NCBI RefSeq assembly: GCF_004101865.1
Contig: NZ_CP026118.1
Location: forward strand, 1,319,001-1,383,000
Direction of reading: 5' to 3'
Origin: Halobacillus litoralis
Lineage (GTDB): Bacteria; Bacillota; Bacilli; Bacillales; Halobacillaceae
DNA length: 64,000 bases
This document shows, in pieces, positions 4,382-17,298 of this stretch. A program made the position numbers and the translations under genes. The notes under the pieces are model-generated. The model saw nothing but the letters and a program-made list of their open reading frames with translations, had not been told where the DNA came from and ran no database searches. Positions within the stretch are counted from its first letter, which is position 1; each line of letters begins with the position of its first letter.

Positions 4382-5406
4382 TTCGCATTTTAAAATCCGG
4401 ACTTCTGACTTCCATTCAGGATCTTGGACGATATGGCTATCAAAAACATGGAATAATCGCATCGGGAGTCATGGATTCTGTAGCACACCGCATCGCAAAC
4501 TTCCTTGTTAATAATGCGGCTAATGCACCAACATTGGAAATCACCCTGATGGGTCCAGTCATTGAATTTCAAGAGGATACATTGATTTCTATATGTGGGG
4601 GAGAACTTTCACCAATGATTGATGGTGAACACGTGAACATGTGGAAATTAATCTATGTCAGAAAAGGGAGCGAGTTACGATTCGGACAGCCTAAGCAAGG
4701 ATTCCGTGCCTATTTAGCTATAGCTGGTGGTTTTGATGTTCCTAGAGTCATGAATAGTGCTTCCACGTATATGCGCGCTGCAGTTGGTGGTTTCCAGGGC
4801 AGAATGCTTGAGAAAGGAGATGAGATCCCTGTATATCCTGACACAGATTTATCCGGCATCTTCCAATCTCTATCATCTGAAATTAGAAAAGATCCTTTTA
4901 TCGAAGCACCTTGGTTTGTAGCGCCTGAAATTACTAGCTACACTAAGACGAACGAGCCTATACGTGTTATGCGAGGCCGGGAATTTGAATTGTTCGATGA
5001 TGCTAGCCAAAATAACTTCATGAAAAACTCATTCAAAATCGATCCTAAGTCTGATCGAATGGGGTATCGTTTAAAAGGAACAACGCTATCTTTAAAAGAA
5101 AAACAAGAAATCGTTTCAGAAGCTGTTACATTCGGTACAGTTCAAGTCCCACCAGAAGGGAATCCTATTATCCTATTGGCTGACCGTCAGACCACAGGTG
5201 GCTATCCTAAGATCGGGCAAGTTGCTTCTGTAGATTTACCTAGAATTGCACAAATGAAACCTGGAGAAAATATGACTTTTCGACACATCAGTCACGCAGA
5301 AGCCCAGCATTTGTATCTCAAAAGGGAAAATCAGCTGCGCCAACTAAAACGTGGAATACATTCAAACATCACTAAGGAGGCACAAATATGTACAGCGTTG
5401 ATTTGA
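4378..5406 (+). CDS. pxpC: 5-oxoprolinase subunit C (KipA-like)
   Basis: A 342-residue biotin-dependent-carboxyltransferase-like (CT_A_B) protein. It starts with [19 protein letters not shown] and has the [40 protein letters not shown] and [18 protein letters not shown] signatures. It partners PxpB in 5-oxoproline cleavage. The length matches the family (about 330-340). It overlaps pxpB by 4 bases and pxpA by 19 bases, so the three subunits are tightly coupled. Confidence 0.93.
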
Positions 5407-6161
5407 ACTGCGATATGGGGGAGAGCTTCGGTGCTTATAAAATCGGACGGGATGAAGAAATATTGAAGTACGTTACCTCCGTCAATATCGCTTGCGGTTT
5501 CCACGCGGGCGACCCCTCGATCATGAAAAAAACTGTCCGCATGGCTATTGAGCATAAAGTAGGTATTGGGGCGCACCCAGGACTTCCTGATTTGGCGGGA
5601 TTCGGCCGCAGACCTATGGACATCACCCCAGAAGAAGCTTATGACATGGTCGTTTATCAAATTGGTGCCCTCAAAGGCTTTGTCGATGCAGAAGGAGGGC
5701 AATTACAGCACGTAAAACCGCATGGAGCTTTATACAATATGGCAGCCAATAAACCATCATTGGCTGATGCAATAGCTAGAGCTGTGTACGACGTCGATCG
5801 TAACCTCGTTTTGTTTGGACTATCCGGAAGTGAACTTGTCCGAGCGGGGCAAAAACACGGACTGAGAACTGCAAATGAAGTGTTCTCAGACCGTACATAT
5901 CAACAAGATGGAACACTCACTTCAAGGAGGAAGCCCGACGCATTAATCACAGATCATGAGCAAGCAGTGAACCAAGTCATACGTATGATCAAAGAAAACA
6001 AAGTCCATTCCCTTCAAAAAGTTGATGTGGATATTGATGTTCAAACTATATGTATCCATGGTGATGGAAGCCGTGCTGTCGAATTCGCCGATTATATAAG
6101 TCAAACTCTAAGAGGTGCCAATATACAATTACAACCCATAGGAGAGTTTTCCACTCGTTGA
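5388..6161 (+). CDS. pxpA: 5-oxoprolinase subunit A (LamB/YcsF family)
   Basis: A 257-residue LamB/YcsF protein, full family length. The signature [17 protein letters not shown] lies at residues 4-20, followed by [29 protein letters not shown] and the [10 protein letters not shown] motif near residue 107. It completes the 5-oxoprolinase and returns 5-oxoproline to glutamate, relevant in a cell that spends glutamate on proline. Its ribosome site lies inside the end of pxpC. The spontaneous product 5-oxoproline accumulates when glutamate or glutamine pools are high, which fits a halophile. Confidence 0.94.
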
Positions 6162-6212
6162 AAGCTGTTTGAACACCTTTTCGCAACAAAATACGTGGAA
6201 GGAGAGTATAAA

Positions 6213-6875
6213 GTGAATTCTCAAGATATGTGGACAAATGTGGACCAGTACTTCCTGGACCACCTCTTTCCTGAAGAAACTATTATGGAAGAGGTTCTGG
6301 AAGTAAATAAAGAAGCAGGACTTCCATCCATCGATGTATCACCGACTCAAGGAAAGCTCCTTCATCTATTAGTGAAGATGAAAGGTGCAAAAAACATCTT
6401 GGAGATTGGCACCCTCGGCGGTTACAGCAGTATTTGGATGGCAAAAGCTTTACCTGAGGGAGGCAAGTTGACGACACTTGAATTCAATCCTAAACATGCA
6501 GAGATAGCAGCAGCGAATATGAAAAAAGCTGGAGTCGAAGAAAAAATCGAGATCATTGTCGGGCCAGCTTTAAATACGCTCCCTACACTAAAAATGAACG
6601 TACCTTTCGACTTTATTTTTATCGACGCAGATAAAAATAACAATCCTCCTTACGTAAATGAGGTTTTAAAACGATCTCAATCTGGAACGACTCTCATCAT
6701 TGATAATGTCGTAAGGAGTGGTGATATATTAGAATCCCAAAGTGAAGATTCCAGCATTCAGGGAATTCGTGAAATGTTCGAAATGCTGAAAAATGACTCA
6801 CGAATGGACTCTACCGCGTTCCAAACTGTGGGAAGTAAAGGTTATGATGGGTTCGTCTTAGCTATCGTAAAATAA
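6213..6875 (+). CDS. SAM-dependent O-methyltransferase (caffeoyl-CoA OMT-like)
   Basis: A 220-residue class I methyltransferase. The SAM-binding motif I is ILEIGTLGGYSSIWMA (about residues 61-76); the acidic motif II region is LTTLEFNP; and FDFIFIDADKNN carries the metal-associated aspartates of the O-methyltransferase 3 family. The family methylates catechol-like substrates; the substrate here is unknown. A GTG at 6195 overlaps the ribosome site, whereas GTG 6213 is 7 bases from AAGGAGA, so 6213 is used. It lies 51 bases after pxpA and could be read from the same transcript. Confidence 0.85.
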   Translation: MNSQDMWTNVDQYFLDHLFPEETIMEEVLEVNKEAGLPSIDVSPTQGKLLHLLVKMKGAKNILEIGTLGGYSSIWMAKALPEGGKLTTLEFNPKHAEIAAANMKKAGVEEKIEIIVGPALNTLPTLKMNVPFDFIFIDADKNNNPPYVNEVLKRSQSGTTLIIDNVVRSGDILESQSEDSSIQGIREMFEMLKNDSRMDSTAFQTVGSKGYDGFVLAIVK

Positions 6876-7943: not shown

Positions 7944-8921
7944 TTAAGGTTTCAAAACCAGTTTACCTTTTGTTTTTCTATTTTGCATTATTTCATGAAC
8001 ATGAGCAGCTTCCTCTAATTTATAGACCCCTCCGATGGTTAACTTCAATTCACCAGTATTGACCATCTTCAACAGGTGATCCAAACTTTTTTCAAACAAG
8101 ACAGGTTTTCTCATAATTTGCGGTAAAAAGAAACCGATTACTGATAAGTTGCGATTCATCAATCCTGATGGGTACATTTCTGCCTGGTTACCACTAGCCA
8201 CCCCATATACGACAACTCGACCAAAGGCACGCATGCATTTGACTGTTTCATGAAATATATCGCCACCCGCCATTTCCAGGGCAATATCAACACCTTTTCC
8301 ATCAGTTATTTTCATAACCTCATCGCCCCAATGTTCACTTGTATAATTAACTGTATGGTCTGCTCCTAGATCCTTGGCTAACTGGAGTTTTTCTTCAGAA
8401 CTTGCGGTCGCAATCACATTCCCCGCCCCGAATTGTTTGGCTAGTTGAACAGCAAGGGACCCTACCCCTCCAGCAGCAGCATGGACAAGGACCGTCTCCC
8501 CTTTTTCAAGCCTCCCCATCGTTGTTAGTAAATGGTATGCTGTCAGACCTTGAAGAGGCAACGCTACGGCAGTCTCATCATTTACACCATCTGGCAGAGG
8601 AATTAAAGAGCTTTCTTTGGTCGTGACATACTCAGCATAGCCCCCCGATCCGATCAGAGTCACTACACGGTCCCCCTTTTTAAAACGGTTCGTACCTTTT
8701 CCTACTTCCTCTACCACACCAGCCACTTCTGCCCCTGGTATGAAAGGAAGAGGCGTAGGTATTACATAAGCACCTTCACGCCTCGCTGTGTCTGCGTAGT
8801 TCACCCCAATCGCTGTCACTCTCAATAGTACTTCTCCTTCATTGATTTCCGGAAGTTCCATTTCTACATTTTCTAAAACCGATGGATTCCCATATTCCTT
8901 AAATTGAATAGCTTTCATCAT
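7944..8921 (-). CDS. NADPH:quinone oxidoreductase family (zinc-free MDR)
   Basis: About 325 residues. The GroES-like domain contains IGVNYADTARREG and PFIPGAEVAGVVEEVG; the Rossmann domain contains VHAAAGGVGSLAVQLAKQFGA (about residues 140-160). The catalytic zinc ligands of alcohol dehydrogenases are absent, as in QOR enzymes. Last gene of the ten-gene acyl-CoA operon, 7 bases after the enoyl-CoA hydratase stop, with its ribosome site over that stop. Tandem ATGs at 8921 and 8918 follow AGGAGGG; one of them is the start. In this operon an enoyl-CoA or quinone reductase role is plausible; the substrate is not predictable. Confidence 0.85.
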   Translation of the reverse strand: MMKAIQFKEYGNPSVLENVEMELPEINEGEVLLRVTAIGVNYADTARREGAYVIPTPLPFIPGAEVAGVVEEVGKGTNRFKKGDRVVTLIGSGGYAEYVTTKESSLIPLPDGVNDETAVALPLQGLTAYHLLTTMGRLEKGETVLVHAAAGGVGSLAVQLAKQFGAGNVIATASSEEKLQLAKDLGADHTVNYTSEHWGDEVMKITDGKGVDIALEMAGGDIFHETVKCMRAFGRVVVYGVASGNQAEMYPSGLMNRNLSVIGFFLPQIMRKPVLFEKSLDHLLKMVNTGELKLTIGGVYKLEEAAHVHEIMQNRKTKGKLVLKP

Positions 8922-8928
8922 TTCCCTC

Positions 8929-9717
8929 CTATTTTCCAATGAAATTTGGTTTTCGTTTTTCCTTAAAAGCCTGGACTCCTTCTTTATGATCTTCAGTTGA
9001 TACCATCATCGCTTGAGTCACCCGTTCTTGCTCAAGGATTGTAGCCAGGTCTGATTTGTCTGCTTGATCGACAATTTTTTTCATCATGCCAAGTGCGCGA
9101 CCTGGCCCTTTCGCAAGACGAAGGGCATAATTCATCGCTCCCTCCTCCAAGTCTTCTAATGGTAAAACGCGATTGACCAAGCCCCACTCCACAGCTGTTT
9201 CAACCGGTATCGGTTCTGCCCGGAATAACAACTCTTTAGCTCGATAAGGGCCTAACAGTTTTGATAAAAAGTAGTGGCCTCCGCCATCTGCCACTAGCCC
9301 TACCTGGGCAAAACTCAGTACGAACTTACTCTCTTCTCCTGCAATGATTTGGTCACAGGCAAGAGCTAAATTGAAACCTGCGCCAGCGGCATATCCATGA
9401 ACGGCCGCAATCACGGGCTTAGGAATATCTTTGAGCATTAATACTAAACGATTCAATTCGCCTACGTGTTCATATAAATGATTTGCTGTAACTTTTTCCC
9501 CCATATTTTTCACATCTCCGCCTGCTGAAAAAGCCCGGCCGGCACCTGAGAGGACAACTACCTTCACATCATCATTTTCAGATGCTACCTTGATAGCTTC
9601 CTGTAAACCTATGATCATATCATCTGAAAAAGCATTTAAGGAATCTGGCCGATTCAACATACAAGACATGACGGGTCCATTAATAGAAACATTCAAATGC
9701 TCGTTTCCCAGTTTCAT
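8929..9717 (-). CDS. Enoyl-CoA hydratase/isomerase family protein
   Basis: A 262-residue crotonase. The oxyanion-hole motif AGRAFSAGGDVKNM (about residues 59-72) and HGYAAGAGFNLALACD (about 109-124) are both present. At the two catalytic glutamate positions of classical hydratases it has Gln (SFAQVGLV) and Asp (ADGGG), as in PaaG/isomerase-type crotonases. Isomerisation, or hydration of an unusual substrate, is therefore as likely as simple enoyl-CoA hydration. It follows the acyl-CoA dehydrogenase gene by 15 bases in the operon, with ribosome site AGGGGAG. Confidence 0.88.
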   Translation of the reverse strand: MKLGNEHLNVSINGPVMSCMLNRPDSLNAFSDDMIIGLQEAIKVASENDDVKVVVLSGAGRAFSAGGDVKNMGEKVTANHLYEHVGELNRLVLMLKDIPKPVIAAVHGYAAGAGFNLALACDQIIAGEESKFVLSFAQVGLVADGGGHYFLSKLLGPYRAKELLFRAEPIPVETAVEWGLVNRVLPLEDLEEGAMNYALRLAKGPGRALGMMKKIVDQADKSDLATILEQERVTQAMMVSTEDHKEGVQAFKEKRKPNFIGK

Positions 9718-9732
9718 AAGTATTCTCCCCTT

Positions 9733-11502
9733 TTAAGATACATAATGACCTGCTTCTAACATTTCTTCCGCAATATCACGATTTCGTTTCAAGCTATCCC
9801 CCATTTGGTATTCACTTAAGAGTGCAGAAACATTTCTCAAAGTCTTTACCCTTTCTTCTCCTTGGAGCAAAGAGGAAAGTAAGCCAGTAGTCGCTTGATG
9901 AACTACTAAAGCGGATTGTTCAATCACCGTCTGGGTCAGCCTTTTCTTCAAATCGTACTTACTTTCCTTTTGAAAAGCTTTTTTTGTACGCAGAACGGCG
10001 GACTCCGCACGATAAATATGAATGGCAATATCTGCAAGTTTCATCAACGTTTCTTGTTCATTTTGTATAGATTTCCCATAAGTGCGATAGGCGGCACCAG
10101 CGGCAACCAAGTACAAATCTTTAAACACTGACACCGGCTCCTCAAGCTTATCCATCCAGTGATTCCCACGTTTGAATCCAGCATTTTTCAAAGAATACTC
10201 TGCTTTTTCCATTAATAATCGAACATCAAGTTCTGCTTGGCCGGCTTTTTTAAAGAATGCACCAGGAATGAGAAGGCGATTAATTTCATTTGTCCCTTCA
10301 AAAATACGATTGATCCTTGAATCACGATATGCTTGTTCAATCGGATACTCTTTAATAAACCCGGCACCACCGTGAAGTTGTAGAGCTTCGTCAACAATTA
10401 AATCGAGGGTTTCTGATCCCACGACTTTACAAATGGCTGATTCCAGCTTGTGTTCATTCATAGCCTTGGCGGTTGCCGACTTGTCTGATGTTTGATAATG
10501 AGCTCCTAATTCTGCCTCTATGTGGCCGGCCGTTCGGAAAAGGAGGGATTCAGCTGCGTATAGATGGGCGCCCATGAGAGCGAATTTTTCTTTACTGGCA
10601 TTAAACTTTGATATGCTTCTTCCAAATTGCTTACGTTCCTTCGTATGTTCAAGAGCTAATTGAAAGCAATACTTCGCGGCTCCTGTGGTAGCGAAACCCA
10701 AATTGAATCTTCCAAGGTTAAGGACATTCAAAGCAATACGATGCCCCTTACCTACTTCTCCCAGTAGATTTTCAACAGGAACCTCACAATCCTCCATGAT
10801 GACCGAGCATGTGGATGAACCTTTGATACCCATTTTATTTTCTTCCGGGCCAATAGTAACGCCGGGGAAATCTTTCTCCACGATAAATGCTGTGAAATGC
10901 TCTCCATCCACTTTTGCATAAACGATGAATGTATCAGCAAAAGCAGCGTTAGTGATATAGATTTTTGTGCCATTCAAAAAATAATGAGACTGACTTTCAT
11001 TCAAAACAGCTGTAGTCTTTGCTGATAATGCATCTGAACCAGCATCTGGCTCTGTCAGACAATAAGCACCAATGTACTCTCCGGAAGCCAGTTTAGGCAG
11101 ATATTTCTGTTTTTGCCCCTCTGTTCCGAAATATGTAATCGGAAGGGTAGCGATACACGTGTGATTTGAATGAGCAACACTATAACCGCTCGCATTACCT
11201 AAAGCTTCTCCAACGATTCCCTTACTGACTTTATCAAGCCCGAGGCCTCCATAAGTTTCAGGAATGCTGTGACTTAACAACCCTAGTTCACCCGCCTGAC
11301 GCATTTTACGAGCAACAAATCCGAAGTCACCTCCCTCGATTTTCATCCAGTTAGGGTGGATTTCCCGGGAAATAAATTGTCGAGCTGTGTCAGCAATCAT
11401 TTTGTGCTCTTCACTTCGGTCCTCAGGCGTGAAAATACATTCAACAGATATATCAGTAGTCAGAAATTCTCCTCCACGAATTTTTTGTTTAATTGCTTGC
11501 AT
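9733..11502 (-). CDS. Acyl-CoA dehydrogenase, long FadE-like form
   Basis: A 589-residue protein, colinear with the roughly 594-residue FadE of B. subtilis. It begins with a KIRGGEFLTTD region and FTPEDRSEEHKMIADT; the FAD/substrate domain has YCLTEPDAGSDALSAKT and FLNGTKIYITNAAFAD. The catalytic region is YRDSRINRIFEGTNEINRL, with the catalytic Glu present. A roughly 160-residue C-terminal extension, usual for this subfamily, follows. An upstream in-frame ATG at 11583 lies inside comB; ATG 11502, preceded by AAGGAGGG, is chosen. It overlaps comB by 14 bases. It should carry out the first oxidation of beta-oxidation on the operon's substrate. Confidence 0.92.
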   Translation of the reverse strand: MQAIKQKIRGGEFLTTDISVECIFTPEDRSEEHKMIADTARQFISREIHPNWMKIEGGDFGFVARKMRQAGELGLLSHSIPETYGGLGLDKVSKGIVGEALGNASGYSVAHSNHTCIATLPITYFGTEGQKQKYLPKLASGEYIGAYCLTEPDAGSDALSAKTTAVLNESQSHYFLNGTKIYITNAAFADTFIVYAKVDGEHFTAFIVEKDFPGVTIGPEENKMGIKGSSTCSVIMEDCEVPVENLLGEVGKGHRIALNVLNLGRFNLGFATTGAAKYCFQLALEHTKERKQFGRSISKFNASKEKFALMGAHLYAAESLLFRTAGHIEAELGAHYQTSDKSATAKAMNEHKLESAICKVVGSETLDLIVDEALQLHGGAGFIKEYPIEQAYRDSRINRIFEGTNEINRLLIPGAFFKKAGQAELDVRLLMEKAEYSLKNAGFKRGNHWMDKLEEPVSVFKDLYLVAAGAAYRTYGKSIQNEQETLMKLADIAIHIYRAESAVLRTKKAFQKESKYDLKKRLTQTVIEQSALVVHQATTGLLSSLLQGEERVKTLRNVSALLSEYQMGDSLKRNRDIAEEMLEAGHYVS

Positions 11503-12226
11503 GCTTTCCCTCCTTGATTTGACCCTTAACTGAATCATAAATAAGTATGCTGTTGAACAAACCTTCCTGTGCAGCGAAGTCAATTTCTTTCTGATCCAGC
11601 CCTGCGCTCATCAACATTTTCCCAATTCGTGAGTTTTGCAGAAGGTGAGCTGCATCTTTATTTCCTTTATAAAAAAGATGGGCGGTCATAGCTGCATCGG
11701 ATAAATTCCATTCTTCCACCCCTCGCATATGACTCACTAAACTTCCGACTCCATAAAAATCTTCCATCGTATATCGACCATTAGATCCAGAACAAATTAA
11801 AATGATGGAATCGTCTTTGTGAAACTGCAATAGGTGATCAGCCATTGCAGGATTGTTCAATAATGATGAAGCATATAAGTCAGAAGCCCTTCTTGATTGA
11901 TGTAAAGCAACAGTGCCGTTTGTAGTGGTCAAAATTAAGTGCTTATCCTTAATGACCGAGCTCAAGTGCGTTCGTAACGGCGGATAAAACCCTTCAATCC
12001 TTTTCCCCTGATCTTCTCCAGCCATGATGAAAGAGTCAGTTGATTTCTTCGCTATTATTCTTGCTTCTTCAGGGTTGTGAACTGGTATGACTGAAGCAGC
12101 CCCATCAGCTATAGCAGCTGTAATCGTTGAGGTAGCGAATAGCACATCAAATACGACCACCGTTTTCCCCTGCAAGTCTTCAGGTCGAATATCCTCTTTT
12201 TTGAAGATGACTTGAACATCCCCCAT
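11489..12226 (-). CDS. comB: ComB-family phosphatase (2-phosphosulfolactate phosphatase-like)
   Basis: A 245-residue member of the ComB family, whose characterised members dephosphorylate 2-phospho-3-sulfolactate using Mg2+. Recognisable segments are VVVFDVLFATSTITAAIADGA (about residues 23-43), GEDQGKRIEGF, TTTNGTVAL (about 101-109) and EDFYGVG. As I know the family, the first motif normally reads DVLRAT and the second TNGTRA; here both arginines are replaced (Phe30, Val107). No phosphosulfolactate synthase (ComA) is nearby. It sits between the kinase-like gene (2-base gap) and the FadE gene (14-base overlap) in an acyl-CoA operon, so a different phosphorylated substrate is likely. Confidence 0.85.
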   Translation of the reverse strand: MGDVQVIFKKEDIRPEDLQGKTVVVFDVLFATSTITAAIADGAASVIPVHNPEEARIIAKKSTDSFIMAGEDQGKRIEGFYPPLRTHLSSVIKDKHLILTTTNGTVALHQSRRASDLYASSLLNNPAMADHLLQFHKDDSIILICSGSNGRYTMEDFYGVGSLVSHMRGVEEWNLSDAAMTAHLFYKGNKDAAHLLQNSRIGKMLMSAGLDQKEIDFAAQEGLFNSILIYDSVKGQIKEGKHASN

Positions 12227-12228
12227 AA

Positions 12229-13290
12229 TTAGAGACCTGCCGTTTCTTCAGCATGTTCGATCAAATTATTAACAAACACATTCATCCCTGCAAAACGGGG
12301 ATCTTCTGTCTGTCCTTGCATATACCGGTAATAGATTTGCTGAATGATGCCAGCCAACTTAAAATATGCGAATGTCATATATACGTGGATTTCACTTAAA
12401 TCACGTCCACTCTTTTCTGCATATCGTTGGAGAAATTCATCCCTCTTGAAAAATCCATCTTGTACTGTAACGGGGGGCTTACCGAGCCCTGTCTTCAAAA
12501 GCTCAGGGTCATCCGGTTGTATCCAATAGCTCATTGCAGCGCCTACATCAGCTAACGGATCCCCCACTGTCGTCATTTCCCAATCAAATAAGCCGACCAT
12601 CTGAGATGGGTTTTCTTTACTGAACATCGCATTATTCAACTTGTAATCGTAATGGATAATCGATGAGTCGGGCGAATTCGGTATATGATCCAGGAGCCAT
12701 TTCTTCAATCGTTCACCTGATACGACATCATCCGTCCGTGCTCGATCATAGCGTTTCATCCACCCATGAAATTGGCGTTCTATAAATCCCTCAGGCTTAA
12801 CCATTTCCCGCAAACCGGTTTCTTTATAGTCAATTGCATGAAGCTCCACTAAACGATCGACCATTGTTTCTGATAAGCTTTCATCTAACTCGGCAGTTGC
12901 TGCTACTCCATCAGGAAATTCTTGATCAAACACAAGCCCTTCCCTTCTTTCCATAACAAAGAATGGTCGCCCTATCAGATTTCCTGACTCATACAGATAA
13001 GGCTTCGGTGCTAACGGAAAGACCGGGTGCAAGGAGTTCAGTATTTTGTACTCTCTCTCCATGTCATGAGCTTTCGGAGCCACTGGCCCCATCGGTGGTC
13101 TCCGGAGTACGACCTTCCATTTCTTTCCGACCGATAGTTCATAGGTCAAGTTGGAATGGCCGGCTCCGAACTGACGTACATCCATTTCTCCTTTTGGTAC
13201 ATCCATTGTCTCTCTTAAAAAAGAAGCGATCTTACTTGTATCCAACTCTTCCCCCGCACGGACCGGCTTCGTATCATTTTTGTAAACCAT
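12229..13290 (-). CDS. Phosphotransferase (APH family), ACAD10/11 kinase-like
   Basis: A 353-residue aminoglycoside-phosphotransferase-fold kinase. The ATP-binding lobe carries FGAGHSNLTYELSV (about 41-54) and WKVVLRRPPMGPVAPKAHDMEREYKIL. The catalytic loop is HYDYKLNN (213-220, Asp215), and the metal-binding motif is GLFDWEMTTVGDPLADVG (about 233-250). This is the pattern of the kinase domain fused to a dehydrogenase in animal ACAD10/ACAD11 and of LvaA of the levulinate pathway, which phosphorylate a 4-hydroxyacyl-CoA. It is translated directly upstream of comB, and a dehydrogenase of the ACAD11 type opens the same operon. Confidence 0.9.
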   Translation of the reverse strand: MVYKNDTKPVRAGEELDTSKIASFLRETMDVPKGEMDVRQFGAGHSNLTYELSVGKKWKVVLRRPPMGPVAPKAHDMEREYKILNSLHPVFPLAPKPYLYESGNLIGRPFFVMERREGLVFDQEFPDGVAATAELDESLSETMVDRLVELHAIDYKETGLREMVKPEGFIERQFHGWMKRYDRARTDDVVSGERLKKWLLDHIPNSPDSSIIHYDYKLNNAMFSKENPSQMVGLFDWEMTTVGDPLADVGAAMSYWIQPDDPELLKTGLGKPPVTVQDGFFKRDEFLQRYAEKSGRDLSEIHVYMTFAYFKLAGIIQQIYYRYMQGQTEDPRFAGMNVFVNNLIEHAEETAGL

Positions 13291-13302
13291 TTCAAACCTC
13301 CC

Positions 13303-13701
13303 TTAATTGGCTGCCAATTGGTAGGACGCTAACATTTCCTTCATCTTCTCTGAAAGGGGATGGCTTTGCTGTTTCCCGAAATCGAATTGAACGATTACAC
13401 TTTTCCCCTTAGCCACAAGCTCGCCGGATTCTTTCTCAAACATTTCCTGTATCAAGTGAAAGCTCGAATTTCCTATCTTATCCACATGGCTATGAATGAC
13501 AAGTGTTTGGTTGAAATATACTTGTTTGATAAAATCACACTTCGTAGACGCGAGAATAAAATTCCAGTCGTCCCCTACAAGCTCTAAGTCATCGAAGAAA
13601 CGAATACGGGAATCTTCCATATAGATAAAAAAATTATTGTTATTGACGTGTCCTAATAAATCCGTTTCACAAAAACGGATTTTCACCTCATGTTCATGCA
13701 T
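13303..13701 (-). CDS. Acyl-CoA thioesterase, 4-hydroxybenzoyl-CoA thioesterase fold
   Basis: A 132-residue single hotdog domain. It opens with EHEVKIRFCETDLLGHVNNNNFFIYMEDSRIRF, the YbgC/FadM-type signature in which the Asp/His-rich loop is catalytic. It presumably releases free CoA from acyl-CoA intermediates of the operon, either as a relief valve or as a product-forming step. It lies 12 bases from both neighbours, with ribosome site GAGGAAGG, and is fully embedded in the operon. Confidence 0.88.
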   Translation of the reverse strand: MHEHEVKIRFCETDLLGHVNNNNFFIYMEDSRIRFFDDLELVGDDWNFILASTKCDFIKQVYFNQTLVIHSHVDKIGNSSFHLIQEMFEKESGELVAKGKSVIVQFDFGKQQSHPLSEKMKEMLASYQLAAN

Positions 13702-13713
13702 GGTCCTTCCTCC

Positions 13714-14586
13714 TCAACTTTTTACCTTAGCATCATAAGTATAAAAACCTTTACCTGTTTTGCGACCGAGCTCTCCCGCCTTCATCTTTTCTTCTAAGGT
13801 TCGAGAGGGCTTGTCCTTCGGATCACCAGTCTCTTCATATTGTTGTTGCATTACATAATAACCGACATCAATTCCTGACAGGTCCATTAATTCAAAAGGA
13901 CCGATCGGGTGATTCAATGCTTTTTTGACTATCTTATCGATATCTTCATAGTCTGCATATCCACCTTCGTATAAACTCATCGCTTCTTTTTGAATAGCGA
14001 ATAGTATACGGTTAGCTACGAATCCTGAAATTTCTTTTTGCAATAATACAGCAGTGCGGTTCATCTGTTCACAAATTTCCATAGCCAATGATACTGTCTC
14101 CTCAGAGGTGTGTTCACCCTTGACCACTTCCACACAATCCATTACTAATGGCGGAAAGAAAAAGTGCATATTGCAAATTTTATCCGGTCTTGAAGTTGCA
14201 TCGGAAATCAAGGAGCTGACGATCGTTGATGAATTGGTAGCCAGCACCGTATGAGAAGGTACTATTTCATCCAATTGAGCAAAGACCTCCCGCTTCACTT
14301 CCAGTTTCTCGATGACGGCTTCTATGACGATATCAGCATCTGCGGCAGCTTCTCTTAGGTCAGAGATGAAATGAAGTCGTTCAAAAGCATGCTGCCGTTG
14401 TTCACTTGTTATTTTTTTCTTTTCCACCCATTTCCCCATGATAGCTGTCAACTTTTCACGAGCTGTATCCAATGACTCCTGACTTATATCCTGCAAGTTT
14501 GTATCATAGCCTGCCAAAGCCCCCAGCATAGCGATTTGATGCCCCATACTTCCCGCTCCAACCACTGTCAATTTGGTTATGGTCAT
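13714..14586 (-). CDS. 3-hydroxyacyl-CoA dehydrogenase
   Basis: About 290 residues. The NAD-binding motif VVGAGSMGHQIAML is at residues 8-21. The catalytic region has ATNSSTIVSSLI and MHFFFPPLVMDCVEVV, with the conserved His of the SxxxxxxxxxxxxxxHxFxP type motif. The C-terminal domain has GFVANRILFAIQKEA, LNHPIGPFELMDLSGID and GELGRKTGKGFYTY. It is a monofunctional enzyme of beta-oxidation or hydroxybutyryl-CoA metabolism. The start at 14586 follows GAGGGGGA; a longer start at 14601 would overlap the regulator gene. Confidence 0.92.
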   Translation of the reverse strand: MTITKLTVVGAGSMGHQIAMLGALAGYDTNLQDISQESLDTAREKLTAIMGKWVEKKKITSEQRQHAFERLHFISDLREAAADADIVIEAVIEKLEVKREVFAQLDEIVPSHTVLATNSSTIVSSLISDATSRPDKICNMHFFFPPLVMDCVEVVKGEHTSEETVSLAMEICEQMNRTAVLLQKEISGFVANRILFAIQKEAMSLYEGGYADYEDIDKIVKKALNHPIGPFELMDLSGIDVGYYVMQQQYEETGDPKDKPSRTLEEKMKAGELGRKTGKGFYTYDAKVKS

Positions 14587-14587
14587 G

Positions 14588-15160
14588 CTACTCCCCCTCA
14601 ATTCCTTTAAAAATCATAGACATATAAATGTCTGTCAGCTCATTCTCTTTCACTTCACCATCCGGCTCGTACCAAAAGTAGCTCCAATTCGCAATTCCAA
14701 GAACAGCGTAAGACAGCATATCCGTCCTAAGGTCTTGACGGAATTCATTCATGAGGATGCCGTCTTCAATTACTTTTTGTATATTTTCCTGGAACAATTG
14801 CCTTTTAGGTAGAATAGCAGCTGTTTTTTCGTCACTGAGATGTCTCATTTCACGGAAAAAAACCATTGCACTATTCCCATTTGAACGAATATTCCTAATC
14901 AGTGTTTCAACAATTTGATAGAGCTTCTCGTGGTTTGTACTTTGCTTGTTTTGCATTATTTGTTCTTGTCCATTTAACAAGTGATCGATAAACGATTCAT
15001 GGATCTGTACAAGAACACCTTCTTTATTTTTAAAATAATAATAGAACGTTCCTTTAGTAGCTCCATTCGCCTCGACGATGTCTTGAATAGACGTGGACCG
15101 AAATCCTTTGTTGCCGAATAGTTCAATGCTCGTTTTCATCATTTGTTCCTTCATACTCAT
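14588..15160 (-). CDS. TetR-family regulator of the acyl-CoA operon
   Basis: About 190 residues. The N-terminal helix-turn-helix is classic TetR: IELFGNKGFRSTSIQDIVEANGATKGTFYYYFKNKEGVL. The C-terminal part is a ligand domain, most likely for an acyl-CoA, by analogy with FadR-type TetR proteins. Located inside the operon, so it is probably autoregulated through the palindrome at 17208-17225. The start is uncertain: ATG 15160 gives a normal N-terminus; ATG 15211 would add 17 residues and overlap the upstream gene, and neither has a strong ribosome site. Confidence 0.9.
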   Translation of the reverse strand: MSMKEQMMKTSIELFGNKGFRSTSIQDIVEANGATKGTFYYYFKNKEGVLVQIHESFIDHLLNGQEQIMQNKQSTNHEKLYQIVETLIRNIRSNGNSAMVFFREMRHLSDEKTAAILPKRQLFQENIQKVIEDGILMNEFRQDLRTDMLSYAVLGIANWSYFWYEPDGEVKENELTDIYMSMIFKGIEGE

Positions 15161-15185
15161 CGTCCCAACGTTAGTATTCTCTTTA

Positions 15186-15965
15186 TTAACAAGAGGCGTG
15201 CATGCCTCCATCTACGACCAGAACATCACCCGTCACATAGTCAGAAGCTTTACAAGCCAGGAAAAGCGCCGCACCTTTCAAATCTTGTTCAGATCCGAAA
15301 CGTCCTAATGGAGTCCGGTCCAAAATGAAATCGCCGCCTTGTTCAAGAACGCCTTTGGACATTTTCGTGGGGAAGAAACCAGGTGCCAAAGCATTTACCT
15401 GGATGTTGCTTTCTCCCCACTTGACAGCAAGATCTTTGGTGAAAGTGATGACAGCTCCCTTGCTTGCATTATAGCCGACCGTTTGCATAAAACGCGGATC
15501 TGCTCCACCCAGTCCAGCGACTGAGGCGATATTAATGATTTTACCTGACTTCTGTTTAAGCATTACTTCGCCGACTTTTTGAGACATTAAGAACGTCCCT
15601 GTTACATTTACATTCATCACTTTCTGAAAAGCCTCTAAAGGCATATCAAGGGTGGGCGCCCCCCAGGTGGCTCCACTATTGTTGACAAGAATATCTATTG
15701 TACCGAATCGATCCACACTCTCTTGAACCACCTGTTCAACATCTTCTGGCTTTGTGATGTCACAGGCGAGGGCTAACGTCTGTACCCCTAAATCACTCTC
15801 CAAGCGAAGGGCTACTTGTTCACAGGCCTCCTTCTTTCGTGAACAGACGATAATATTCGCACCTGCTTCTGCTAATCCTTCAGCAATTTGTTCACCAAGT
15901 CCCCTTCCTCCACCAGTCACAAGAGCGGTCTTTCCCGTCAAATCAAAAAGTTTCTTTACATGCAT
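15186..15965 (-). CDS. Short-chain dehydrogenase/reductase (FabG-like)
   Basis: A 259-residue classical SDR. The cofactor motif TGGGRGLG is at 17-24, NNSGA near 95-99, and the catalytic triad is Ser148, Tyr165 and Lys169 (YNASK). The C-terminus has the usual DVLVVDGGMH. It most likely oxidises or reduces a hydroxy- or ketoacyl-CoA; an SDR (LvaD) is also part of the levulinate operon of Pseudomonas. It is the second gene of the operon, 4 bases after the first dehydrogenase, with ribosome site AAGGAGTG. Confidence 0.9.
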   Translation of the reverse strand: MHVKKLFDLTGKTALVTGGGRGLGEQIAEGLAEAGANIIVCSRKKEACEQVALRLESDLGVQTLALACDITKPEDVEQVVQESVDRFGTIDILVNNSGATWGAPTLDMPLEAFQKVMNVNVTGTFLMSQKVGEVMLKQKSGKIINIASVAGLGGADPRFMQTVGYNASKGAVITFTKDLAVKWGESNIQVNALAPGFFPTKMSKGVLEQGGDFILDRTPLGRFGSEQDLKGAALFLACKASDYVTGDVLVVDGGMHASC

Positions 15966-15969
15966 GGTC

Positions 15970-17181
15970 TCACTCCTTGTATTTAGATAATTCCAGTTTA
16001 GCTATTTGGCGGCGGTGAACTTCATCAGGCCCATCAGCAAGGCGTAAGGTCCGTGAATTCGCCCATTGGGCAGCCAACGTGAAATCTTCACTGACTCCCG
16101 CTGCTCCATGTGCTTGAATAGCACGATCGATGACACGTAAGGCCATATTTGGGGCGACAACTTTAATCATAGCTATTTCTGTTTTTGCTTGTTTATTGCC
16201 GACAGTATCCATCATATAAGCAGCTTTCAGCGTTAATAGCCGCGCTTGCTCCAGATCAACTCTTGAATCAGCTATCCATTCCCTTACCACTCCTTGTTCA
16301 GCCAGAGAACGATGAAAGGCTACACGGTTTTGTACACGCTTACATAAATCTTCAAGTGCTCGCTCAGCTGCTCCGATCAACCGCATACAATGATGGATAC
16401 GACCTGGCCCAAGTCTTCCTTGAGCGATTGCGAATCCTTTTCCTTCTCCCCATATGATATTCTCTTTTGGTACGCGCACATTAACAAAGTCTATCTCCGC
16501 GTGACCATGTGGAGCATGATCATATCCGAAAACCGGCAGCATGCGGCGGATATGTACCCCTTTAGTGTCCAGTGGTACTAGAATCATAGATTGTTGCTCA
16601 TATCTTTGCGCATCCGGGTTCGTTTTCCCCATAAAAATAGCTACCTTGCAACGAGAGTCGCCTGCTCCGGAGGACCACCACTTCCTCCCATTGATGACGT
16701 ACTCATCCCCGTCCCTTGTAATCCGTGCCTCGATGTTCGCAGCATCCGAGGAAGCCACTTCTGGTTCTGTCATGGAAAAACAAGAACGTATTTTCCCTTG
16801 TAAAAGTGGCTTTAACCATGTGTCCTTCTGCTCTTCGCTTCCATAACGGGCTAAAACCTCCATATTGCCAGTGTCTGGAGCGTTGCAATTGAAAACCTCA
16901 GGTCCAATTAAAGATCGTCCCATCATTTCACACAAAGGAGCATATTCAAGGTTGCTCAATCCTGCACCATATGTATCATCTGGTAAAAATAAATTCCATA
17001 ATCCTTGCTCTTTAGCCTTAGCCTTCATCTCTTCCATGATCGGCAGTGTTCCATCCCAACGACTTTCCTGCGACTTTAATTGGTCTTCGTAAACAGACTC
17101 GTTAGGATAAACCCATTCTTCCATGAATTCCTTCAGCTTATCTTGATAGTTTTTTACTTTTTCTGTGTAATCGAAATTCAT
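15970..17181 (-). CDS. Acyl-CoA dehydrogenase, ACAD10/ACAD11 subfamily
   Basis: A 403-residue protein whose second half is strikingly like the dehydrogenase domain of animal ACAD10/ACAD11: [59 protein letters not shown] and, at the end, [10 protein letters not shown] (380-389). At the position of the usual catalytic Glu (EGTNE in the FadE gene of this operon) it has Asp383. ACAD11-type enzymes are reported to eliminate phosphate from a 4-phosphoacyl-CoA rather than simply desaturate. First gene of the operon, with ribosome site AAGGAGGAAAA and promoter/operator directly upstream. Confidence 0.92.
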
Positions 17182-17207
17182 TTCATTTTCCTCCTTTCCT
17201 CCCTAAC

Positions 17208-17225
17208 ATACCAACCGGTTAGTAT
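17208..17225. promoter_or_regulatory. TetR-type operator
   Basis: ATACCAACC followed directly by GGTTAGTAT, an 18-bp inverted repeat with one mismatch, centred on AACCGGTT. It lies immediately downstream of the -10 box of the operon promoter and about 27 bases before the first gene, the expected place for repression by the TetR protein encoded at 14588-15160. Confidence 0.8.
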
Positions 17226-17231
17226 CCTTAC

Positions 17232-17260
17232 ATTTTATACCTATTATTCTGAAAATTCAA
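17232..17260 (-). promoter_or_regulatory. Sigma-A promoter of the acyl-CoA operon
   Basis: On the minus strand TTGAAT (17255-17260), a 17-base spacer and TAAAAT (17232-17237). The start point would fall at about 17225, at the edge of the operator palindrome. Confidence 0.65.
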
Positions 17261-17298
17261 CATAAATGAATGAATACTCATTTTTTGAATTAAAAAAG

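Follow-up and report, generated by a model that had tools for sequence, protein, structure and literature searches.

A probable two-gene counterpart of ACAD11 in a beta-oxidation operon of Halobacillus litoralis, with a ComB-family protein as possible accessory phosphatase

The window analyzed here, a stretch of 64,000 nucleotides from Halobacillus litoralis (assembly GCF_004101865.1, contig NZ_CP026118.1, positions 1,319,001 to 1,383,000), carries an operon of ten consecutive minus-strand open reading frames (ORFs) that runs from position 17181 down to 7944. The explanation that best accounts for the whole, and that we consider reasonably probable, is that it encodes a two-gene equivalent of mammalian ACAD11 within a beta-oxidation operon, with a protein of the ComB family as accessory phosphatase. 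The prediction of a 4-hydroxyacyl-CoA kinase and a phospho-eliminating dehydrogenase that would feed beta-oxidation is well supported by homology. The kinase and dehydrogenase chemistry is already known; what is new is that a ComB-family protein with a signature of its own is strongly linked to the kinase.

Based on Pfam and NCBIfam scans, the operon encodes, in the order of transcription, an ACAD11-like acyl-CoA dehydrogenase (ACAD), a short-chain dehydrogenase/reductase (SDR), a TetR regulator, a 3-hydroxyacyl-CoA dehydrogenase, a thioesterase, an APH kinase, ComB, FadE, a crotonase and a quinone oxidoreductase. An earlier analysis from the letters alone, here called the sequence-only reading, had described a ten-gene operon with these gene types, and all of them were found. 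The intergenic gaps are at most 25 bp throughout when ATG starts are used where available, and the ComB and FadE genes overlap by 14 bp. Given that similar gene orders recur in relatives, and that every ACAD-bearing genome of the order also has the kinase, we do not regard the arrangement as a product of chance.

The first gene (15970..17181, minus strand) encodes a 403-amino-acid (aa) protein whose assignment to the ACAD11/LvaC type is well supported by its structure matches and active-site residues, and for which elimination of phosphate from 4-phosphoacyl-CoA is predicted. Its best matches among solved structures are 4hr3 (485.5 bits) and human ACAD11 (2wbi, 463 bits), whereas the best conventional ACAD, FadE3 (4iv6), reaches 139.4 bits. 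The ACAD11 signature motifs noticed in the sequence-only reading are indeed present, at residues 260-267 and 380-389. In the alignment, R256, R261, H264, R267 and the catalytic Asp, D383, correspond to R626, R631, H634, R637 and D753 of mouse ACAD11; according to PMC12440821, R631 is family-wide and the other four were mutated or modelled. All five residues are kept in 50 of 51 aligned proteins from the window and the fetched loci, the single exception being an ordinary ACAD (26% identical).

The kinase (12229..13290, minus strand; 353 aa, PF01636) has the APH fold and is a predicted 4-hydroxyacyl-CoA kinase of the LvaA/ACAD11 kinase-domain type. Among solved structures it is closest to 9o56 (457 bits), an entry deposited under the name aminoglycoside phosphotransferase and on which no paper was found in the open-licence literature; 3dxp and ACAD11 follow, with 143.1 bits to the ACAD11 kinase domain (8v3v). 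D215, N220 and R172 align with D220, N225 and R176 of mouse ACAD11, which were mutated or modelled in PMC12440821. All 52 aligned proteins retain the catalytic Asp and Asn, and 51 of them the CoA-contact Arg; the one that lacks it is a different APH protein (26% identical). R79-E80 aligns with an Arg-Glu pair of ACAD11 whose Arg falls at about position 84 by hand count, compared with the CoA-contact R86 beside the alphaC Glu. With D215, N220 and R172 of the kinase and the five ACAD residues matching their mouse counterparts, the earlier description of a split kinase and ACAD11-type dehydrogenase holds. Given that bacterial orthologues can substitute for the kinase and ACAD parts of ACAD10 in vitro, as stated in PMC11342911, the homology-based assignment of both proteins is reasonable.

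ACAD10 and ACAD11 act by phosphorylation followed by elimination of phosphate to yield 2-enoyl-CoA, according to PMC11342911 and PMC12440821. In the corresponding scenario for the operon, the kinase would phosphorylate the 4-hydroxyl of 4-hydroxyacyl-CoA, and the ACAD11-type dehydrogenase would remove the phosphate through transient oxidation and re-reduction on FAD to give 2-enoyl-CoA, which the operon hydratase, 3-hydroxyacyl-CoA dehydrogenase and FadE may then shorten.

The gene directly after the kinase (11489..12226, minus strand; 245 aa) belongs to PF04029, the 2-phosphosulfolactate phosphatase family (192.6 bits versus a cut-off of 26.4). Its AlphaFold model, built from a 21-sequence alignment, has a mean pLDDT of 95.7 and a TM score of 0.90 to 1vr0, and all seven of its Protein Data Bank (PDB) matches at E <= 0.001 are chains of the ComB-family entries 1vr0, 2yyv and 2z0j. 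The sequence-only reading was thus right to call this a phosphatase-family gene but not in likening it to the HAD domain of ACAD10, which has an unrelated fold. A HAD identity is ruled out by the PF04029 assignment, the ComB fold and the lack of a HAD structure match, and the Pfam scan gave no HAD hit among the ten operon proteins.

The operon ComB is a member of a distinct subfamily. In an unrooted IQ-TREE phylogeny of 70 ComB proteins, from which one fragment with a stop codon was left out, 48 operon-type and 22 ordinary sequences fall on either side of one split (UFBoot 97). FastTree support for the clade, read after rerooting, was 0.50; the IQ-TREE run was made because node labels can shift when a FastTree tree is rerooted. 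Residue 30, the Arg of the DxLRAT motif, is Arg in 22 of 22 ordinary ComBs and in none of the 48 operon-type proteins, which have Leu (46), Met or, in the window, Phe30. Position 83 changes from Asn (21/22) to Pro (47/48), and a Lys10-Glu11 pair, unconserved in ordinary ComBs, is present in 48 of 48. Seven residues (Asp27, Glu71, Thr102, Gly104, Thr105, Asn124 and Gly147) do not vary in either set, and Asn103, Asp156 and Asp177 hardly do. Position 30 is also hydrophobic in 80 of 80 loci from named genomes (Leu 64, Phe 14, Ile 1, Met 1), the best 80 of 580 confirmed loci, a set that is biased to close relatives and was gathered in part with a search pattern that included LLAT. The model places residues 27-30 directly after the strand 22-26 and residues 10-11 in a turn after the strand 3-7; both segments may line the active site. 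We suspect that the change from Arg to Leu and the Lys10-Glu11 pair would mark a switch in specificity.

Low NCBIfam scores turned out to be a poor mark of this difference. The window ComB scores 150.3 bits against an equivalog cut-off of 345 and falls below the cut-off of all eight models. In a control, two of six Arg-type ComBs passed any cut-off, as did none of four other operon-type proteins (none of five with the window copy); the argument was dropped because four of the six Arg-type proteins miss the cut-offs too. An ordinary ComB with a ComA neighbour was also considered, and no ComA was recognized beside the window copy. The same genome has a second ComB-like gene (G000:C1:3109759-3110394, locus L002), which is Arg-type and 28% identical, and its neighbours, read from their translations, are transporter-like and uridine-phosphorylase-like genes.

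The distribution of the three genes was surveyed in 249 genomes of the order, 44 of the family and a broader phylum sample of 299, with order-level thresholds of E <= 1e-90 for the ACAD, E <= 1e-60 for the kinase and more than 70 bits for ComB. The ACAD is found in 111 of the 249 order genomes, and the kinase is present in 111 of those 111. Three further kinase-bearing genomes (G045, G051 and G136) have a 40-41%-identical ACAD beside the kinase. The kinase occurs in 114 genomes and ComB in 98, of which 96 have both (2x2 table 96, 18, 2, 133; Fisher p 2e-47, with no correction for phylogeny). One of the two ComB-bearing genomes without the kinase (G164) has a copy with a stop codon, and the ComB of the other (G262) is Arg-type. 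In the phylum sample, some ComB (E <= 1e-10) is found in 160 of 299 genomes and the kinase in six; thus, the ComB family at large is independent of the pathway. In the genome that contains the window, a single ACAD of this kind was found at E <= 1e-100 and a single kinase at E <= 1e-60.

The genes are also physically linked. With five weak hits (30 to 37 bits) excluded, 81 of the 102 ComB hits in the order lie within 150 bp of a kinase gene; the number rises to 84 at up to 3 kb and to 90 at up to 8 kb, and the other 12 are on another contig, on the other strand or more than 8 kb away. Of the 81 closest pairs, 79 have ComB downstream of the kinase. Among 40 orthologous kinases of the own family (at least 460 bits), 34 have a same-strand ComB within 200 bp, and 29 of the 40 have an ACAD within 12 kb, one of which (G023) is a fragment. 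Six more distant kinase copies in the family lack a ComB within 200 bp, the one in G040 having it 937 bp away. Of the 80 named loci, 75 contain the kinase, which in 70 of them directly precedes ComB, and 61 contain an ACAD11-like gene. No fusion of kinase and ComB was seen among 120 kinase relatives listed out of 7975, each of which shows PF01636 alone, in a search that admitted proteins up to 1.75 times the query length, so that longer fusions would escape it.

The link between ComB and the kinase survives rearrangement. Sixty loci were fetched from the order and family genomes, mostly chosen for diversity and a few for a lone ComB or kinase. The order is ComB-kinase-ACAD in L058, and ComB adjoins the ACAD rather than the kinase in L030, L053 and L062. 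Distant members have three-gene ACAD-kinase-ComB cassettes (L046, L049 and L080; ACAD 41%, kinase 44 to 49% identical), or the same trio beside more ACAD and transporter genes (L065; ACAD 40%, kinase 47%). In a genome of another order (G450, L166), ComB adjoins a 39%-identical kinase, and the cluster also contains an ACAD11-like gene and TRAP transporter genes. Counter-examples are G290, G337 and G376, in which kinase and ComB are both present and non-adjacent; the ComBs of G290 and G376 are Arg-type, and the kinase of G290 is accompanied by a 42%-identical ACAD. L029 has a group of ComB, ligase and phosphotriesterase-family genes with no kinase in the stretch, and is weak evidence because that genome's kinase lies on another contig. 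In G023, a partial ACAD11-like remnant (G023:C1:1584147-1584860) that covers just residues 101-338 of the query is found close to the kinase-ComB pair, and a full copy elsewhere; in some relatives, the ACAD seems to have been replaced by a paralogue at another locus.

Two candidate regulatory sites precede the operon. The palindrome ATACCAACCGGTTAGTAT (17208..17225), located 27-44 bp before the first gene, is the likely operator of the local TetR protein; it has zero mismatches to the pattern ATACYAACCGGTTRGTAT, which was drawn from the site itself. With up to three mismatches, the pattern occurs in 55 of 108 upstream regions of relatives' ACAD11 genes versus 0.05% of shuffles. Two other sites in the own genome with two mismatches were dropped, as they lie inside unrelated reading frames, and two more have three mismatches. 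Further upstream is a FadR-type box, ATGAATGAATACTCATTTTT (17266..17285), with two mismatches to the B. subtilis FadR consensus. The own genome encodes a FadR (NF053878, 313 bits) and has four such sites with at most two mismatches: before the operon, at a fatty-acid ligase gene, immediately ahead of fadR, and at a fadN-fadA-like pair, whose fadN-like protein scores under the cut-off of its model. The sites at the ligase and fadN-like genes fall inside the longest reading frame, close to its beginning, which makes a start further downstream probable for both. With up to four mismatches, the box is present in 9 of 11 upstream regions labelled Halobacillus and in none of 97 others (shuffles 0.28%). 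Thus, the Halobacillus operon is probably switched on together with fatty-acid oxidation.

Given that a FadR-type box precedes the operon, we suspect that in this Halobacillus its most likely substrates would be medium- or long-chain 4-hydroxy fatty acids, or 4-oxo fatty acids via the SDR. A somewhat unlikely alternative is that the same chemistry acts on a gamma-lactone or a short 4-hydroxy or 4-oxo acid (levulinate, 4-hydroxyvalerate or gamma-valerolactone), as in a Gram-positive version of the lva pathway. An AMP-ligase-like gene is present in 41 and a LivH-like gene in 13 of 50 fetched order-level kinase loci (in the same stretch), and in two distant genomes (L028 and L166) the TRAP genes dctP and dctM replace the Liv-type ABC transporter in the ACAD11-ComB-kinase cluster. 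Shorter or exogenous acids are therefore possible in other genera, and relatives with a ligase and Liv or TRAP transporters may import them. The window operon, however, has neither an LvaE-type ligase nor a transporter gene, and is preceded by the FadR-type box. In addition, Aneurinibacillus sp. H1 put no levulinate carbon into 3-hydroxyvalerate, according to PMC7362256, although carriage of the operon by H1 is not assumed. The suggestion in the sequence-only reading that levulinate may be used is thus weakened for this Halobacillus; in relatives that have ligase and transporter genes, short acids are still candidates.

The phosphotriesterase family includes lactonases, and a gene of this family is present in 4 of the 80 named loci (L101, L161, L150 and L162) and in L029 (5294-8790), a hint that lactones may be a source of 4-hydroxy acids. 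In L101 and L161, the lactonase-like gene and a second ligase gene follow a full operon. In L150, L162 and L029, these two genes lie near ComB with no adjacent kinase.

ComB could hydrolyze 4-phospho-acids or 4-phosphoacyl-CoA that escape the dehydrogenase, which would reset a dead-end intermediate and restrain net flux through the kinase. Free 4-phospho-acid was reported in cells in PMC11342911, and the operon thioesterase could release this compound as a ComB target. We tentatively propose, with slightly more doubt than confidence, that in Bacillales the ComB clade has come to deal with the phospho-intermediates of 4-hydroxy acid breakdown, either as a phosphatase or as a partner that restrains the kinase. 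This would be an activity new to PF04029 and independent of the HAD solution in ACAD10. Phosphosulfolactate, the natural substrate of ComB, is itself a phosphorylated hydroxy acid, so the change in specificity would be a short step. In the order, ComB is nearly absent where the kinase is absent and yet dispensable, which fits a role in repair or restraint acting on the kinase product. The open-licence literature yielded no paper that deals with the operon or places a ComB protein in 4-hydroxy acid metabolism, in searches that were not all aimed at ComB.

Alternatively, ComB may be catalytically altered and serve the kinase as a binding or regulatory subunit. The tight pairing and the missing Arg are compatible with this, and there is a precedent in the HAD domain of ACAD10, which has an incomplete motif and restrains the kinase with negligible phosphatase activity, according to PMC11342911. 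We consider it unlikely, given that the operon ComBs retain Asp27, Glu71, Thr102-Asn103-Gly104-Thr105, Asn124, Gly147, Asp156 and Asp177 as ordinary ComBs do.

Since acyl chain preference cannot be read from sequence and several of the operon genes are generic, the kinase and ACAD might instead belong to an unrelated catabolic pathway and act on another hydroxyacyl-CoA (5-hydroxy, branched or isoprenoid), but the retention of all 4-phosphate-binding residues of ACAD11 makes this quite improbable. That ComB is an ordinary 2-phosphosulfolactate phosphatase travelling with the operon for no functional reason would agree with its fold, its acidic residues and its undistinctive NCBIfam scores, and is highly unlikely in view of the clade-wide loss of the Arg, the new Lys10-Glu11 pair, the kinase pairing kept across different gene orders, and the Arg-type or interrupted state of the only two copies in genomes without the kinase.

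Several points weigh against the interpretation favoured here, a two-gene ACAD11 equivalent with ComB as its accessory phosphatase. The reactions of the operon are predicted from homology and its substrate chiefly from the FadR-type box, and the suspected role of the ComB Arg is read from conservation and predicted secondary structure. The linkage statistics treat related genomes as independent. ComB is missing from 18 of the 114 kinase-bearing order genomes, and mammals manage without it as well, so the pathway does not require it. Given the near absence of phosphatase activity in the HAD domain of ACAD10 (PMC11342911), the analogy with ComB is one of role rather than of chemistry. The palindrome, at up to three mismatches, is absent from 53 of the 108 ACAD11 upstream regions. 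For the FadR-type box, 11 more sites in the own genome have three mismatches, and the single one examined is at no fad gene; a reversed control pattern gave four sites at up to three mismatches versus 15 for the FadR pattern. Finally, because the box was seen only in Halobacillus regions, the fatty-acid argument is confined to this genus and does not extend to relatives.

Compared with mammalian ACAD10 and ACAD11, the operon proteins belong to the same kinase and ACAD subgroups, share the mutated or modelled residues and are predicted to carry out the same two reactions (PMC11342911 and PMC12440821). Unlike the mammalian proteins, they are encoded by separate genes, with no HAD domain and with a ComB-fold protein beside the kinase; HAD and ComB may nevertheless have a similar role. 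The lva operon of Pseudomonas putida, as described in these two papers, likewise has a split kinase (LvaA) and ACAD (LvaC) related to ACAD10/11, whereas the window copy lacks an LvaE-type ligase and has beta-oxidation genes, a thioesterase and ComB instead. The 2-phosphosulfolactate phosphatases (1vr0, 2yyv and 2z0j) share the fold and the acidic and TNGT residues of the operon ComB, which differs from them in forming its own clade, in the replacement of the DxLRAT Arg by Leu, Phe or Met and of Asn83 by Pro, in the new Lys10-Glu11 pair and in its tie to the kinase. The FadR regulon of Bacillus includes fadR, fadNA and ligase genes; the window operon is likewise preceded by a FadR-type box in a genome that encodes FadR, but it differs in containing a TetR gene and in having a palindrome apart from the box.

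The breakdown of 4-hydroxy fatty acids has been assigned to enzymes only recently, in mammals and Pseudomonas. Much of the Bacillus group, in which genetic work is feasible, has operons with the same core enzymes and, beside the kinase, one more conserved gene. If ComB is indeed a phospho-hydroxyacyl phosphatase, the phosphorylated intermediate would need policing in bacteria too, a family named after a coenzyme M enzyme would gain a new activity, and ComB would serve as a simple parallel when the function of the ACAD10 HAD domain is studied. The system is not specific to halophiles: kinase-ComB loci are also found in Geobacillus, Metabacillus and Aneurinibacillus, among others. The nearest relatives are from Halobacillus: the best kinase relative is 97% identical (Halobacillus sp. 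H74), and the 14 best-listed ComB loci are from this genus.

The remaining operon genes are likewise all on the minus strand. The SDR oxidoreductase (15186..15965), of the NF006070 subfamily annotated as gluconate 5-dehydrogenase, frequently adjoins the ACAD11-like gene in relatives and may possibly interconvert 4-oxo- and 4-hydroxyacyl-CoA. It is followed by the TetR regulator (TetR_C_24; 14588..15160, with an alternative earlier start up to 15211), a likely local repressor, and by the 3-hydroxyacyl-CoA dehydrogenase (3HCDH, HBD-like; 13714..14586) and the 4HBT_2 hot-dog thioesterase (13303..13701). Downstream of ComB are the FadE-type acyl-CoA dehydrogenase (9733..11502; NF058590, 751.7 bits versus a cut-off of 600), the crotonase/enoyl-CoA hydratase (8929..9717; PF00378) and a PIG3-like zinc-type NAD(P)H:quinone oxidoreductase/enoyl reductase (7944..8918), which at 287.8 bits falls just below the cut-off of 296.8. 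Promoter and terminator scans gave results near shuffled levels. Past the operon and a GNAT-like gene, positions 5388-6875 of the window encode what we take, from their translations, to be LamB/YcsF-like (5-oxoprolinase subunit A) and O-methyltransferase-like proteins.

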